A DNA stretch of 64,000 nucleotides, from positions 1 through 64,000 of the forward strand of contig PALG01000033.1 of the NCBI GenBank assembly GCA_002707025.1, in the 5' to 3' direction. The DNA comes from Flavobacteriaceae bacterium (GTDB lineage Bacteria > Bacteroidota > Bacteroidia > Flavobacteriales > Flavobacteriaceae). The stretch's first letter is position 1, and every line of letters starts with the position of its first letter. Shown one piece after another: positions 1-31,721 of the stretch. The translations under genes were made by a program, and so were the position numbers. The notes beneath the pieces are model-generated. The model was not told the origin of the DNA and made no database searches. It saw nothing but the letters and a program-made list of their open reading frames with translations.

Positions 1-480
1 ACCCCGTGAGCGAGGCGTTTTCCACTTCCCCTTACGTAGTTTGCCAGCCTTTCATTTACCAAAAACCATAATGGGACGACGAACCCCGTGAGCAAGGCGT
101 TTTCCACTCACCTTAACGCAGTTTGATAGCCTCTTTACCAAAAACCATAATGGGACGACGAACCCCGTGAGCAAGGCGTTTTCCAATTCCTCTTACGCAG
201 TTTGATAGCCTCTTTACCAAAAACCATGATGGGAAGACGAACCCTGTGAGGGAGGCGTTTTCCACTTCCCTAACGTAGTTTGCTAGCCTTTCATTTACCG
301 ACATCGAAAAAGAAGGACGAACATCCTGTATGACGCATTTCCTATTTGTTCTGACTCAATAAACCGTTTTTTCAACTTCCCAAATCACAAGAAGGAATGC
401 GAACCTTGTGAGCAAGGCGTTTTCCAATTCCTCTTACGCAGTTTGCCAGCTTTTCAACTCCCGTATTGTAAAAAGGATGG
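1..480. repeat. Six diverged tandem copies of an ~80 bp non-coding repeat
   Basis: Copies begin near 1, 83, 162, 241, 321 and 403, giving a period of 79-82 bp. The best-conserved core reads roughly gtgagcaaggcgttttcc, followed about 15 bp later by an acg(c/t)agtttg(a/c)(t/c)agc segment and then accaaaaaccataatggg. Copies 2-4 are close to identical, while the fifth (from 321) is badly decayed. No spacers separate the copies and no protein-coding frame spans the array. Copy 1 is cut by the window edge, so the array may continue upstream. It lies just downstream of the sod terminator. I see no known function. Confidence 0.85.
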
Positions 481-26152: not shown

Positions 26153-26554
26153 ATGCTCAAGGAATTCAAAGAATTTGCAATGAAAGGCAATTTGGTCGAC
26201 ATTGCTGTAGGTTTTGTAATGGGTGCTGCTTTCAACAAAGTAGTTTCCTCATTTACTGGAGGTATTGTATCTCCTTTAATAGGATTGATCTTTAATTCAG
26301 ACTTCAAAGACTTAAGATATCAATTAAAAGAAGGAACTATGAATGATGCCGGAGAAATGGTAGGGGAAGTTTGGTTGGAATATGGAACCTTTTTAACCAA
26401 TGTTATCGATTTCATTATTGTAGCTTTTGTGATGTTTATGGTGGTAAAAGGAGTGAATAAAACGAAGAAGAAAAAAGAAGAAGCCCCTGCTCCAGATCCA
26501 GGCCCATCGGAATTGGATTTATTGAAGGAAATTAGGGATGCCCTTAAAAAATAA
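26153..26554 (+). CDS. mscL: Large-conductance mechanosensitive channel MscL
   Basis: The homopentameric inner-membrane channel opens under osmotic downshock. At 133 residues it matches the family. The N-terminal helix MLKEFKEFAMKGNLVDIAVGFVMGAAFNKVV is the conserved first part and gate-forming transmembrane 1. A loop follows, then transmembrane 2 (FLTNVIDFIIVAFVMFMVVKG), then a lysine-rich tail with the helix SELDLLKEIRDALKK. A good terminator lies downstream, and a GC-rich palindrome sits 5 bp beyond the stop. Confidence 0.96.
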   Translation: MLKEFKEFAMKGNLVDIAVGFVMGAAFNKVVSSFTGGIVSPLIGLIFNSDFKDLRYQLKEGTMNDAGEMVGEVWLEYGTFLTNVIDFIIVAFVMFMVVKGVNKTKKKKEEAPAPDPGPSELDLLKEIRDALKK

Positions 26555-27745: not shown

Positions 27746-28144
27746 ATGAACACTTTTCACACAATTCTTCGTATTGGCTTAGGCGTCCTTTTGTTGTTAT
27801 TCGGATTCAATAAATTTTTTTGGTTTTTAAAAGATTTTGATTTTACGGGTTACCCTGAAGCGGAATACTTATTTGAAGCGCTACGCTATTCTTGGAGCGA
27901 ACCCTCTGGAAAAGGATATATTATGAATTTAGTAGGTCTTACAGAAGTAGTCTCCGGATTGTTATTGGTGCTTCATAAATGGACTCCATTTGCCTTAATA
28001 ATCCTAGTGCCCATTTCTATAAATCTAGTCGCTTTTCATCTTTTTGTAAATCTTCCCAATATAGGGCCAGCGTTACTGGTTGCTTTAGTGAATGGATATT
28101 TAATTTATAGAAACTGGAGTGCCTTTAAGCCCCTATTTCAATAA
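27746..28144 (+). CDS. DoxX-like membrane protein (paralogue 1)
   Basis: This 132-residue inner-membrane protein has four hydrophobic helices: near 5-30 (RIGLGVLLLLFGFNKFFWFL), 60-80, 84-105 and 108-125. The C terminus reads NWSAFKPLFQ. The fold and length match the DoxX/DoxD-like quinone-associated membrane protein family. A second copy at 31338 has clear similarity (ILFGLNKF, PISINI, FHLF, PLFQ), so the pair probably arose by duplication. In other bacteria DoxX-like proteins take part in quinone or sulfur redox chemistry. The exact role here cannot be read. Confidence 0.82.
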   Translation: MNTFHTILRIGLGVLLLLFGFNKFFWFLKDFDFTGYPEAEYLFEALRYSWSEPSGKGYIMNLVGLTEVVSGLLLVLHKWTPFALIILVPISINLVAFHLFVNLPNIGPALLVALVNGYLIYRNWSAFKPLFQ

Positions 28145-28234
28145 CTTTCCTATAAACAAGGGGTTAAAATACCATTGCATAAAAGTTTTTCTTACATTTA
28201 GGACGTTTTTAAAAAAAGATTAAGAATACGTTCC

Positions 28235-29620
28235 ATGAAAATTAAATTATTAACATTTGGAATCTTAGGGATTTCTCTGGTTTCTTTATTACAATCTTGT
28301 AAGTCTGATGACGCCGATGCTTACACCCCCATAAACATTATTGCAGAGGCAGATGTTTCGGAGGTTTTTCAAGATGAAACGCTTACGATTCCTATTTTTG
28401 ATAACGATCAAAATATTCCAGAAAATGCTACCGTCCAAATCGAAGGCCTTGGTACTGGTGCCGTTCAATTATTGGACCCCAATAATACTCCCAATACTAT
28501 TTTGGATGATGTTATTGAATATGTTCCTAACGCAAATTATTCGGAAACAGACACTTTTCAATATACCATTTGCGACGAAGAAGGAATGAGTTGTGATAGT
28601 GCGGAAGTTTCTATAAAAATATATAAACCCCTCAATATCGATTTAGGAGCGTTGCCTTATGAAAAGTTGTCGGATTATAATTTCTTTTATGCTTCCTTAG
28701 CAAATCAGGAGCCTGTTCCTGGAGTACTTCCTTATGAACCCATAAGTACTCTTTTTACAGATTATGCCCATAAAAAAAGATTTGTTTGGATGCCCAAGGG
28801 GGTTTCCGCAGAATATGTTGGAGATGGTGACCTGCTTAACTTTCCTGACGGAGCGATCCTTGTTAAAACTTTCTACTACGATAATGTCTTGCCTTCAAAT
28901 ACAACTCAAATAATTGAAACCCGTTTGCTTATTAAACGTGGAGGGACTTGGGAATTTGCAGATTATATTTGGGACGAAGCCCAACAAGAAGCCATTTTGA
29001 ATACTTCGGGAAATGGAGCAAATGTTCCTATTGAATGGGTCCAAAATGGAGAAACCAGAAGTATTAATTACCGAATTCCTTCTACCGCAGAGTGCTTTAT
29101 TTGTCATAAAAATTCGGACCAAATTATTCCGATAGGCCCTAAACCCCAAAACTTGAATGGAAATTACCAAGACGGGCTTACTTCTTTCAATCAGTTACAA
29201 AGATGGATCGAAGAAGGCTATTTAATGAGTAATCTACCTCCAAATATTGAAACGGTCATCGATTGGGAAGATACTTCCGAAGCTATCGAGCTTAGGGTAC
29301 GCTCTTATATGGATATTAACTGTGCGCATTGCCATGTCGATGGAGGTCATTGTGGGGCGCGTTCTATCCGACTTGCTTTCCGGGAAAGTTCAGATCTTGA
29401 AAATATGGGGGTATGCTCCATTCCAGATATGCCTATTCCAGGATACGATGATACTACTTTAATTGTTCCTGGAGAAGCCGATAATTCTATCCTATTTTTC
29501 CGAGTGGCAACCACTCAAGAGGAGTATAGAATGCCTATGACCGGAAGAACCATAGCCCACGATGAATTTGTAACCTTATTAGAAGAATGGATCAATTCTT
29601 TAACCATAACTTGCGACTAA
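28235..29620 (+). CDS. Diheme c-type cytochrome lipoprotein (SO2930-like)
   Basis: This 461-residue protein is exported and lipid-anchored: the lipobox is LLQSC with Cys22 as the modified residue. Residues ~30-130 form an Ig/cadherin-like domain (SEVFQDETLTIPIFDND ... TFQYTICDEEG). The C-terminal part contains two heme c binding motifs, C287-x2-C290-H291 (CFICH) and C363-x2-C366-H367 (CAHCH). Its pattern resembles the SO2930-type diheme family, which is my inference. A T9SS protein follows 16 bp downstream and probably shares its transcript. Electron donor or acceptor roles are likely, with no partner visible. Confidence 0.85.
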   Translation: MKIKLLTFGILGISLVSLLQSCKSDDADAYTPINIIAEADVSEVFQDETLTIPIFDNDQNIPENATVQIEGLGTGAVQLLDPNNTPNTILDDVIEYVPNANYSETDTFQYTICDEEGMSCDSAEVSIKIYKPLNIDLGALPYEKLSDYNFFYASLANQEPVPGVLPYEPISTLFTDYAHKKRFVWMPKGVSAEYVGDGDLLNFPDGAILVKTFYYDNVLPSNTTQIIETRLLIKRGGTWEFADYIWDEAQQEAILNTSGNGANVPIEWVQNGETRSINYRIPSTAECFICHKNSDQIIPIGPKPQNLNGNYQDGLTSFNQLQRWIEEGYLMSNLPPNIETVIDWEDTSEAIELRVRSYMDINCAHCHVDGGHCGARSIRLAFRESSDLENMGVCSIPDMPIPGYDDTTLIVPGEADNSILFFRVATTQEEYRMPMTGRTIAHDEFVTLLEEWINSLTITCD

Positions 29621-29636
29621 CTTTTATTATTAAATT

Positions 29637-31247
29637 ATGAAAAATAGATACCTATTAATAATTACTCTTTTGGCTTTCGTTTCAGGATATGCCCAAGTGT
29701 CATTTACACCACAAGCTAACAATACCACAGGTTCCGATAGAGCCGTAGTAGATATGAATGGAGATTTTTTAGACGATATTGTCTCTATAACCTCCACAAA
29801 TATTCAGATTTTTTACCAACAACCCGATGGAAGCTTCGTTGAAACCAATATTACCACCAATATTGCCGACAATACTCCTTCTTGGAGTCTCGCTGCAGCA
29901 GATTATGATGGTAATGGGTATACCGATTTACTCTATGGTGGAGGGAACGGAGTAACTTTTATGCGCGCCAATAATGATGGTACCGCTTACTCTGAAGTTA
30001 CCTTTACCGAATATGTTTTCTCGCAACGATCCAACTTTGTAGACATTAATAATGACGGCCACTTAGATGCTTTTGTATGTCATGACGTAGAGCCTAATGT
30101 ATATTTTATCAATGACGGAAGCGGAAACTTTACTTTTAATCAAGGAGGTATTGGGGACTATCCTACGGGTGGTCATTACGGATCGGTATGGATTGATTAC
30201 GATAATGATGGCGATATGGACATGTTCAACGCAAAGTGTAATGTAAGTGGAGTGCTCAATGAACGAAGTGAAGATGAACTTCACAATAATGACGGTTCTG
30301 GAAACTTTACTGAAGTAGGGGCTGCAGCAGGATTGGAAGATCAAATGCAGACTTGGTCCTCGGCTTGGGCAGATTTTGATAACGATGGGGACATGGATGT
30401 CTTTGGGGGAAGTAGCAACAATGGCGATCCCCATAAATTGAAAATCAATAATGGAGATGGAACTTTTACTGAAATTACCAATACAACGGGGATTAATGTC
30501 CTAACCGCAACAGGTATTGAAAACTGTGCTTACGACTTTAATAATGATGGGTATGCAGATATCGCTTCCAATGGAAACATTCTTTTAAACAATGGAGATT
30601 TAACTTTCACCGTAGTATCCAATGTTATTCCTAGTAATAACGGTTCGTTTGGAGACCTCAACAATGATGGTTTTATAGATTCCTTTACAGGAGGAACCAT
30701 CTATTATAATGATGGGAATGACAACAACTGGATTACCATCAATACTGTGGGGGTAGACAGTAACCTGAATGGAATTGGAGCTCGCGTAACCATTACTTCA
30801 GACCTCGGAACCCAGATTCGTGATGTTAGGAGCGGTGAGGGCTTCCGTTACATGAGTACGCTTAATACGCATTTCGGTCTTGGACAGGATACCGAAATTG
30901 CCACCATTACCATTACCTGGCCTTCAGGATTGGTAGACACCCTTGAAGATGTGGCAGTAAATCAAGTAATTAACGTAGCAGAAGGATCTACCATTTTAGG
31001 AGTTACCGATAATGGATTGGACAATCTATTCATTTACCCTAACCCTGTTTCAGAAAATTTACAGATTTCTACCCTGAAAGATTTTTCAAACCCTTTTTAT
31101 TCCATTTTTGACATTCAAGGAAAAATGGTTACTTCAGGAAAGCTTAAAGAGCCAACCATTAATGTAGGTTCATTGGCAAGTGGAAATTATGTTTTAAAAG
31201 TGTATGATGGCACTATTGCTAAAACACAAAAATTCATTAAGAACTAG
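29637..31247 (+). CDS. FG-GAP/VCBS and ASPIC-UnbV repeat protein with T9SS type A sorting domain
   Basis: This is a 536-residue secreted protein. It has a signal peptide cleaved near GYA-QVS, then repeated blade motifs of the FG-GAP/VCBS kind with D-x-D-G-D-G-D-style calcium loops (DYDNDGDMDMF, DFDNDGDMDVFGG, DFNNDGYADIA, DLNNDGFIDSF). These predict a beta-propeller. An ASPIC/UnbV domain follows (GVDSNLNGIGARVTITS, then RSGEGFRYMS, HFGLGQ). The last ~75 residues form the T9SS type A domain (YPNPVSENLQIS ... FIKN). It follows the diheme lipoprotein by 16 bp and precedes the second DoxX gene across a terminator. Function unknown. Confidence 0.9.
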   Translation: MKNRYLLIITLLAFVSGYAQVSFTPQANNTTGSDRAVVDMNGDFLDDIVSITSTNIQIFYQQPDGSFVETNITTNIADNTPSWSLAAADYDGNGYTDLLYGGGNGVTFMRANNDGTAYSEVTFTEYVFSQRSNFVDINNDGHLDAFVCHDVEPNVYFINDGSGNFTFNQGGIGDYPTGGHYGSVWIDYDNDGDMDMFNAKCNVSGVLNERSEDELHNNDGSGNFTEVGAAAGLEDQMQTWSSAWADFDNDGDMDVFGGSSNNGDPHKLKINNGDGTFTEITNTTGINVLTATGIENCAYDFNNDGYADIASNGNILLNNGDLTFTVVSNVIPSNNGSFGDLNNDGFIDSFTGGTIYYNDGNDNNWITINTVGVDSNLNGIGARVTITSDLGTQIRDVRSGEGFRYMSTLNTHFGLGQDTEIATITITWPSGLVDTLEDVAVNQVINVAEGSTILGVTDNGLDNLFIYPNPVSENLQISTLKDFSNPFYSIFDIQGKMVTSGKLKEPTINVGSLASGNYVLKVYDGTIAKTQKFIKN

Positions 31248-31270
31248 ATCATTTCTTAACCTTTTGATTC

Positions 31271-31305
31271 AAAAACCGTTAGTTTCGTAAACTGACGGTT
31301 TTTTT
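31271..31305 (+). terminator. Rho-independent terminator of the diheme/ASPIC operon
   Basis: A 12 bp stem (aaccgttagttt with aaactgacggtt, one G-T wobble) with a 3 nt CGT loop is followed by a T tract. Confidence 0.9.
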
Positions 31306-31337
31306 AGTATCTTTAAGTAAACTCAAAATCACCAACC

Positions 31338-31721
31338 ATGAATTCAACGTTTACTAAAATCCTTTGCTTTCTCTTGGCCCTTGTTTTAATCTTATTTGGT
31401 TTGAACAAGTTCATTGAATTTAGTTTTCTCCCTCTTCCGCAGTTGCCCGAAAGTGCAGCCAATTTTATGACCTCCCTTTCTGCTACTGGCTATGTGCTTC
31501 CTATTGTTGGGGCTTTGGAAGTCGGGATTGGTTTACTGCTTTTATTCCGAAAATGGGTTGCTTTTGCCCTATTACTGCTCGCCCCAATTTCCATCAATAT
31601 TTTCCTTTTCCACTTATTCCTAGACATGCCAGGAATTATCCCTGCTATTATTATTGTACTCATTAATGGAATTTTAATATATAAATATTGGAACGCTTAT
31701 AGACCTTTATTTCAATATTAG
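31338..31721 (+). CDS. DoxX-like membrane protein (paralogue 2)
   Basis: The second DoxX-like protein has 127 residues and four membrane segments. It aligns with paralogue 1: VLILFGLNKFIEF with LLLLFGFNKFFWF, then EVGIGLLLLFRKW with EVVSGLLLVLHKW, then PISINIFLFHLF with PISINLVAFHLF. Both end in a PLFQ stretch (here PLFQY). The start is placed at ATG 31338, 22 bp after a TATCTTTA -7-like box (31308-31315). It lies between the FG-GAP T9SS protein and the S9 peptidase. It may support a surface redox function, but direct evidence is lacking. Confidence 0.82.
   Translation: MNSTFTKILCFLLALVLILFGLNKFIEFSFLPLPQLPESAANFMTSLSATGYVLPIVGALEVGIGLLLLFRKWVAFALLLLAPISINIFLFHLFLDMPGIIPAIIIVLINGILIYKYWNAYRPLFQY

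Follow-up and report, generated by a model that had tools for sequence, protein, structure and literature searches.

A conserved gene pair of Flavobacteriales encoding a diheme lipoprotein with a predicted P460/cytochrome c'-beta-like domain and an ASPIC/FG-GAP protein

The analysed stretch of DNA (the window, 64,000 nucleotides (nt) of contig PALG01000033.1 from a Flavobacteriaceae bacterium, assembly GCA_002707025.1) carries two adjacent genes, for a diheme c-type lipoprotein and for an ASPIC/FG-GAP protein with a type IX secretion system (T9SS) sorting domain, which form a tight gene pair conserved, with high confidence, across the Flavobacteriales examined. The N-terminal half of the diheme core is predicted to have the fold of cytochromes P460 and c'-beta, heme proteins that act on hydroxylamine and nitric oxide. 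We favour, with some reserve, a reading of the pair as a two-gene unit in which a surface lipoprotein joining a P460/c'-beta-like heme to a cytochrome c domain stands beside an ASPIC propeller. An earlier note on this DNA had described the pair as bracketed by two related DoxX genes and had proposed a redox role, possibly at the surface, shared by all four. Its four open reading frames (ORFs) were all found as described, on one strand (Table 1), and the gene order was borne out, the two DoxX genes being 45% identical. So were a diheme lipoprotein with two CxxCH motifs, a lipobox at Cys22 and a TIGR03806 match, and a T9SS-exported partner whose FG-GAP, UnbV_ASPIC and T9SS type A domains all score above cut-off.

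Table 1. Features of the diheme-ASPIC locus (positions in the window; residues of the diheme lipoprotein)
Feature	Position	Residues	Strand	Remarks
doxX1 (upstream paralogue)	27746-28144		+	Pfam DoxX match; single clade
Diheme lipoprotein	28235-29620		+	Big_9 and TIGR03806 matches, two CxxCH
Lipobox Cys22 and following KSDDA	28298-28315		+	Surface lipoprotein export-like signal
Big_9 immunoglobulin (Ig) domain		36-127
P460/c'-beta-like heme domain (predicted)	28634-29248	~134-338	+	AlphaFold model, structure alignment, profile comparison with decoys
Lys211, P460 heme-lysine cross-link position	28865-28867	211	+	Lys in 36/38, Thr in 2
Glu228-Thr229-Arg230, strand bearing the distal carboxylate in P460	28916-28924	228-230	+	Each 38/38
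Heme motif 1, CFICH	29093-29107	287-291	+
Cytochrome c domain		~339-461
Heme motif 2, CAHCH, in cytochrome c domain	29321-29335	363-367	+
Met433-Pro434, probable axial Met ligand of heme 2	29531-29536	433-434	+	38/38
ASPIC/FG-GAP propeller protein with T9SS type A sorting domain	29637-31250		+	Pfam and NCBIfam matches
Probable terminator of the diheme-ASPIC unit	31271-31305		+	15-pair hairpin, then T residues
doxX2 (downstream paralogue, beyond terminator)	31338-31721		+	45% identity to doxX1

Conservation of the diheme-ASPIC gene pair

In the window the ASPIC gene lies 16 nt downstream of the diheme gene. When 397 family genomes, an even sample of a larger group, were searched, a close diheme gene was present at E <= 1e-95 in 68; one of these is the window's genome, and the loci of the 67 others were examined. 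There, the ASPIC gene is the next gene on the same strand for 73 of 75 diheme matches; the remaining two are second dihemes of arrays, one of them near a contig end (two adjacent copies in genome G351 were merged and counted once, and a second diheme fragment in G400 was left out). In a collection of named genomes the pair is present in 77 of 80 loci, and in one further locus (L236) an ASPIC gene begins after the diheme gene but runs off the contig. This collection overlaps the family genomes, at least 10 of its 80 contigs being equal in length to family-genome contigs, so that the second count is not independent of the first. Across a phylum-wide sample of 247 genomes, all seven strong diheme matches, window included, adjoin an ASPIC gene, and none of 21 weaker diheme relatives has one beside it at E <= 1e-50. 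The pairing is not absolute, and two facts count against it: two Flavobacterium loci (L235, L247) hold solo diheme genes within the stretch examined, and some loci carry second diheme genes. ASPIC relatives also occur without such a diheme gene, in the genomes G444 and G452, both from other families.

The pair is not bound to one place in the chromosome. It occurs at other loci without DoxX genes, for example in Aequorivita (L184, L185), and in Kordia algicida it sits beyond the ABC gene described below. Five loci (L055, L058, L062, L138, L139) show a tandem duplicate of the pair, diheme-ASPIC-diheme-ASPIC, and two (L193, L194) a single diheme gene followed by three ASPIC genes. In genome G038, two further ORFs lie 3' of the pair (L061:3571-6137, minus strand); they resemble a DUF1800-DUF1501 pair of secreted proteins.

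Domains and export signal of the diheme lipoprotein

The diheme lipoprotein consists of a signal peptide, an Ig domain (Big_9, 40.8 bits versus a cut-off of 23.6) and a two-domain core. The core matches the TIGR03806 "SO2930 family diheme c-type cytochrome" model at E 1.4e-84, its 283.9 bits lying below the curated cut-off of 313.3, so that on its sequence the protein is classed as a relative, not a member, of TIGR03806. Both CxxCH motifs are present in 38 of 38 aligned diheme proteins, window included. The lipobox cysteine is kept and followed by two or more acidic residues at positions +2 to +6 in all 28 sequences aligned for it, window included. Acidic lipoprotein export signals are described for Flavobacteriaceae in a published study (PMC5080379). 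From this signal and the T9SS sorting domain of the partner, both products of the pair are therefore predicted to lie outside the cell. Diheme proteins of 358-384 amino acids (aa) make up 43 of 74, at least one of which (in G400) is cut by a contig end. Genome G171 (L291) also encodes an SO2930-like diheme core inside a very long open frame of 1668 aa, apart from two ASPIC-paired copies.

A predicted P460/cytochrome c'-beta fold

A structure search with a model of the whole diheme protein was filled by Ig-domain matches. An AlphaFold model of the core, built from 38 sequences, reached a predicted local distance difference test score (pLDDT) of 95.0 and a predicted template modelling score (pTM) of 0.91. 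When this model was aligned by VIA-align to 996 Foldseek candidates, the top nine rows were five cytochromes c'-beta and four cytochromes P460, with Z from 7.4 to 4.8 and all within model residues 4-208; the first other row had Z 3.5. The best c'-beta rows (Z 7.4 and 6.7) came ahead of the best P460 row (5.2). Profile comparison by hhalign agrees. Against nine PF16694 proteins it gave E 3.6e-6 and 1.2e-5 (hhalign probability 87.5 and 81.3), and with two PDB stretches added the N-terminal half scored 42.1 (E 5.2e-6), compared with 14.0 when the profile was reversed, no more than 18.3 over 60 column shuffles, at most 17.9 for six other alignments and 21.9 for the protein's own C-terminal half. 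Pfam Cytochrome_P460 (PF16694) was matched by 17 of the 38 members, best E 0.0018, all below cut-off.

Several observations weigh against this assignment and are gathered here. Foldseek itself returned nothing for the core model at E <= 0.001, and the highest Z, 7.4, falls short of the 8 that VIA-align calls safe and is weak by itself. The hhalign match is confident over 16-38 columns only. The window protein is not among the members with a below-cut-off PF16694 match, its genome has no PF16694 match at E <= 1e-6, and another heme family, MtrC/MtrF domains II/IV, drew weak matches from a larger number of members (23, best E 0.0065). Searching PDB sequences with a profile of the 38-sequence alignment brought up five chains at E <= 10, none of them P460 or c'-beta; the same kind of search with an earlier diheme profile (A1) had no match at E <= 1. 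Taking model and profile comparisons together, the N-terminal half of the core is nonetheless likely to have the P460/c'-beta fold.

The residues around the putative first heme bear on which of the two families it resembles. The window's PDGAILVK (residues 204-211) is identical to a stretch of the P460 chain 9hrk, in which the lysine of this motif lies 24 residues before the aspartate of ADFMVK; a 2025 review of the superfamily gives the same spacing for the cross-linking Lys78 and the distal Asp102 of Methylococcus capsulatus P460, and names the residue that occupies this lysine's place in c'-beta as Phe, Met, Leu, Val, Ile or Glu (PMC11928373). Besides the residues marked 38/38 in Table 1, Trp239, Tyr244 and Trp246 are invariant in all 38 sequences, and Tyr167 (37/38) falls, by our own count, at about the position of the distal cap. 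Two details speak against a strict P460-type pocket: Asp205 of the shared stretch is conserved in only 4 of 38 sequences, and hhalign places Arg230, not Glu228, at the distal carboxylate position, in a tentative register.

The ASPIC/FG-GAP partner

The T9SS sorting domain of the partner is recognised by TIGR04183 and PF18962 (43.5 bits, cut-off 23, and 46.6 bits, cut-off 27). FG-GAP repeats and UnbV_ASPIC are present in 20 of 20 aligned proteins, window included, and 79 of 81 ASPIC matches, again counting the window, have five to seven DxDxDG-like sites; the FG-GAP propeller is probably calcium-loaded. Most of the relatives (59 of 80) are longer than the window's protein, at 668-1041 aa. One of 80 ASPIC relatives (L117) is a match to the sorting domain alone. 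Long forms (L052-L072) are extended at the N-terminus by about 150 aa. Of 20 aligned ASPIC proteins, six match fn3 and two MAM; the others showed no Pfam domain in common in this extension. The closest solved relative in sequence is human CRTAC1 (PDB 9etn, E 1.7e-20), which is not known to have a T9SS sorting domain or a cytochrome partner.

Transcription unit and the DoxX genes

A hairpin followed by T residues lies directly behind the ASPIC gene of the window. The stretch 31265-31312 folds at z -5.1, with none of 200 shuffled sequences as stable, although a generic terminator scan of the window did not list it. A terminator script found a hairpin and T run after the ASPIC gene in 12 of 14 gaps, that is in 12 of 13 relatives, the window being counted and missed there, since its T run is base-paired as part of the stem. 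The same script found none in 9 doxX1-diheme gaps, none in 15 asd-doxX1 gaps and none in 13 diheme-ASPIC gaps, these last mostly too short to hold one; it found one in 16 doxX2-S9 gaps and two in 5 doxX1-doxX2 gaps. With a terminator hairpin after ASPIC, doxX2 is therefore placed outside the pair's transcript, and as read from the sequence the transcription unit probably ends before it; doxX1 may be co-transcribed with the pair.

In many genomes of the family the usual gene order is rsmI (minus strand), tdk, alr, mscL, asd, a variable interval, the S9 peptidase gene and an ABC gene. Many genomes without the pair there have doxX2 between asd and S9; doxX2 occupies this interval alone in 25 loci, in four of which (G042, G277, G193, G367) the pair is found just outside. 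doxX1 and doxX2 stand directly in tandem, without the pair between them, in five loci, and one such genome (G087) has the pair elsewhere. Of 68 other diheme loci, 9 carry both DoxX genes around the pair and 50 lack DoxX altogether; among the named genomes both surround it in 5 of 80 loci, including Halomarinibacterium, Altibacter, Aureisphaera and Patiriisocius. The four-gene order is not due to chance, because ten genomes, window included, keep doxX1-diheme-ASPIC-doxX2, two of them with an extra diheme gene within it, which follows ASPIC in G301 and precedes it in G351. On a neighbour-gene tree of 84 loci, three changes are needed for doxX2, seven for the pair and nine for doxX1. In a table of 43 DoxX loci, doxX1 accompanies the pair in 11 of 16 versus 3 of 27 (Fisher p 0.00017), a value biased by the choice of loci for a diheme or doxX2-like gene; only some doxX2-like matches below about 51% identity entered the DoxX tables. 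Phylogenetically independent contrasts of doxX1 and the pair were not significant (on average 3.5 in the same direction and 0.4 in the other).

The protein encoded by doxX1 matches Pfam DoxX with 31.3 bits (cut-off 23.6), and that of doxX2 has no Pfam or NCBIfam match at E <= 0.001 but aligns to doxX1 over 131 columns at the identity given above. The "duplicated redox membrane proteins" of the earlier note did not hold up as such: CxxC occurs in none of 57 DoxX relatives, 51 of which contain no cysteine at all, and the window's doxX1 has none and its doxX2 one. The thiol-redox signature of a CxxC or cysteine pair is thus missing, and the DoxX proteins here are redox proteins by family name only. 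A recent doxX duplication around the heme protein was ruled out, doxX1 being one old clade (Shimodaira-Hasegawa-like approximate likelihood ratio test, SH-aLRT, 100), and a hybrid DoxX left by recombination was rejected on the weak test that, among the matches listed, the alignments of the closest doxX2 sequences begin at query residue 1 and reach 125-127. The DoxX genes form a tandem module of their own, which lies in the asd-S9 interval and shares the locus with the pair. Elsewhere, the window's genome has one more DoxX paralogue, its third, with 32% identity to doxX1 (L003, G000:C29:81386-81733). Upstream, the window's mscL (26153-26554) shares 74-86% identity with the genes of certain distant family members and only about 46-52% with those of the nearest relatives on the neighbour-gene tree, a pattern that suggests an in-place gene replacement by transfer.

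Relation to known systems

With the SO2930 family the diheme protein shares the two-CxxCH core, and all 28 sequences of the alignment, the window's among them, match TIGR03806 at E <= 0.01. A TIGR03805 beta-helix gene is a typical neighbour of TIGR03806 cytochromes. The window differs in that its partner is a downstream ASPIC/FG-GAP T9SS protein and not an upstream TIGR03805 beta-helix, and in its added Ig domain; no TIGR03805 match was found among eight window proteins scanned. In the wider SO2930 family, 12 of 21 loci were judged by eye to have an upstream beta-helix-like ORF, and the TIGR03805 cut-off was passed by 10 of 10 upstream ORFs picked for a beta-helix look (from seven wider-family loci and three of the family search). 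The window's Flavobacteriales clade has an ASPIC propeller downstream where the wider family often has TIGR03805 upstream.

The likeness to cytochrome P460 (Nitrosomonas, Methylococcus; PF16694) lies in the predicted fold, in PDGAILVK with its lysine at the cross-link position and in a CxxCH at the end of the domain. The window protein differs from it in its fusion to a cytochrome c domain, in being a lipoprotein, in its occurrence in Bacteroidota and in a distal carboxylate that is not secured. Cytochromes c'-beta give the best structural alignments and differ by the residue at the cross-link position. The review cited above treats the fold as unique to these two families and their sequences as proteobacterial, and a term search of its main text gave no mention of Bacteroidetes or Bacteroidota (PMC11928373). 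The passages found on SO2930/SO2931 give lists, locations and expression values; one network table assigns SO_2930 to its outer membrane/extracellular class. The literature matches listed for SO2930, TIGR03805/TIGR03806, ASPIC with cytochrome, DoxX, and P460 in Bacteroidetes held nothing on this pair or fusion, subscription journals being mostly outside the search; a paper on an iron regulator of Bizionia argentinensis contained neither ASPIC, UnbV nor FG-GAP by term search. The literature searched yielded no functional data, which counts against our reading.

Proposed function and alternative explanations

In the mechanism that we propose, the product of the first gene would be exported to the surface as a lipoprotein in which a P460/c'-beta-like domain is fused to a His/Met cytochrome c domain, the Ig domain serving as a spacer added in this lineage. 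Heme 1, if loaded, would be a small-molecule-binding heme with an open distal site, at which a small nitrogen oxide or similar ligand such as hydroxylamine or nitric oxide (NO) would react; electrons would move from heme 1 to heme 2, which would hand them to a further carrier at the surface or in the periplasm. The type IX-secreted product of the second gene, an FG-GAP propeller with an ASPIC part, would lie beside the cytochrome on the cell surface and anchor or aim it, possibly in a complex. The assignment of hydroxylamine or NO chemistry as the substrate side of this scheme is tentative and, on balance, rather improbable.

It is possible, at a chance well below even, that heme 1 acts like a c'-beta heme, scavenging or sensing NO by binding only, or as a plain conduit, with no hydroxylamine-type catalysis. 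The lead of the c'-beta rows in the structure alignment and the unsecured distal carboxylate favour this view, whereas the lysine kept in 36 of 38 sequences where c'-beta has other residues, and the fusion to a cytochrome c domain, argue against it. That the P460 likeness is convergence or chance, the N-terminal half being an unrelated beta-rich heme domain, is quite unlikely: the Z below 8, the short confident alignment and the PDB profile search without a P460 chain would be expected on that account, but the top nine rows all belong to one superfamily, the profile comparison and the weak Pfam signals are independent of them, and the decoys score far lower.

The extent of the unit was weighed in the same way. 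The earlier note's four genes as one redox unit, in which the DoxX proteins would exchange electrons with the heme protein, would account for the doxX1-pair-doxX2 order in the nine other loci and for the association of doxX1 with the pair. We regard it as very unlikely, given the many diheme loci without DoxX, the five tandem DoxX loci without the pair in the interval, the terminator between ASPIC and doxX2, the absence of CxxC and the non-significant contrasts; for doxX2, the present data already speak against membership. A four-gene operon was rejected for its conservation in only 9 of 68 loci, the DoxX genes without the pair and the terminator, so that of the earlier note's shared surface redox role the part concerning the diheme lipoprotein and the ASPIC protein stands, as a prediction for a conserved pair, and that concerning the DoxX genes falls; its proposed check, conserved order in related genomes, came out likewise for the pair and against the group of four. 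An operon of doxX1, diheme and ASPIC genes closed by the terminator, with doxX2 an outsider, has a better claim and is still doubtful. It agrees with the nine doxX1-diheme gaps free of terminators, with the terminator that usually follows ASPIC, and with doxX1 as one clade that tends to accompany the pair; yet doxX1 stands directly beside doxX2 without the pair in five loci, the doxX1-diheme gaps, at about 40-160 nt, are long enough to hold a promoter, and block deletion would yield the same association of doxX1 and pair. The two-gene unit of diheme lipoprotein and ASPIC protein is thus the reading that we retain.

It is tempting to speculate further, in a form that we hold to be unlikely as a whole, that this unit is a flavobacterial surface P460-type enzyme that forms its own heme-lysine cross-link, exports electrons through the cytochrome c fused to it, is held by an ASPIC propeller that binds calcium, and oxidises hydroxylamine or a similar small nitrogen compound outside the cell. 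On this view all SO2930 proteins would belong to a so far hidden branch of the P460 superfamily, spread across the phylum, and in Flavobacteriales this branch would have exchanged the beta-helix partner for a T9SS propeller. If the fold and the cross-link lysine are true for this uncharacterised bacteroidotal lipoprotein family, its chemistry would be testable by a simple spectrum. An uncharacterised protein of marine bacteria thereby gains a testable heme site, and a conserved partner for ASPIC/FG-GAP T9SS proteins offers a handle on their function.

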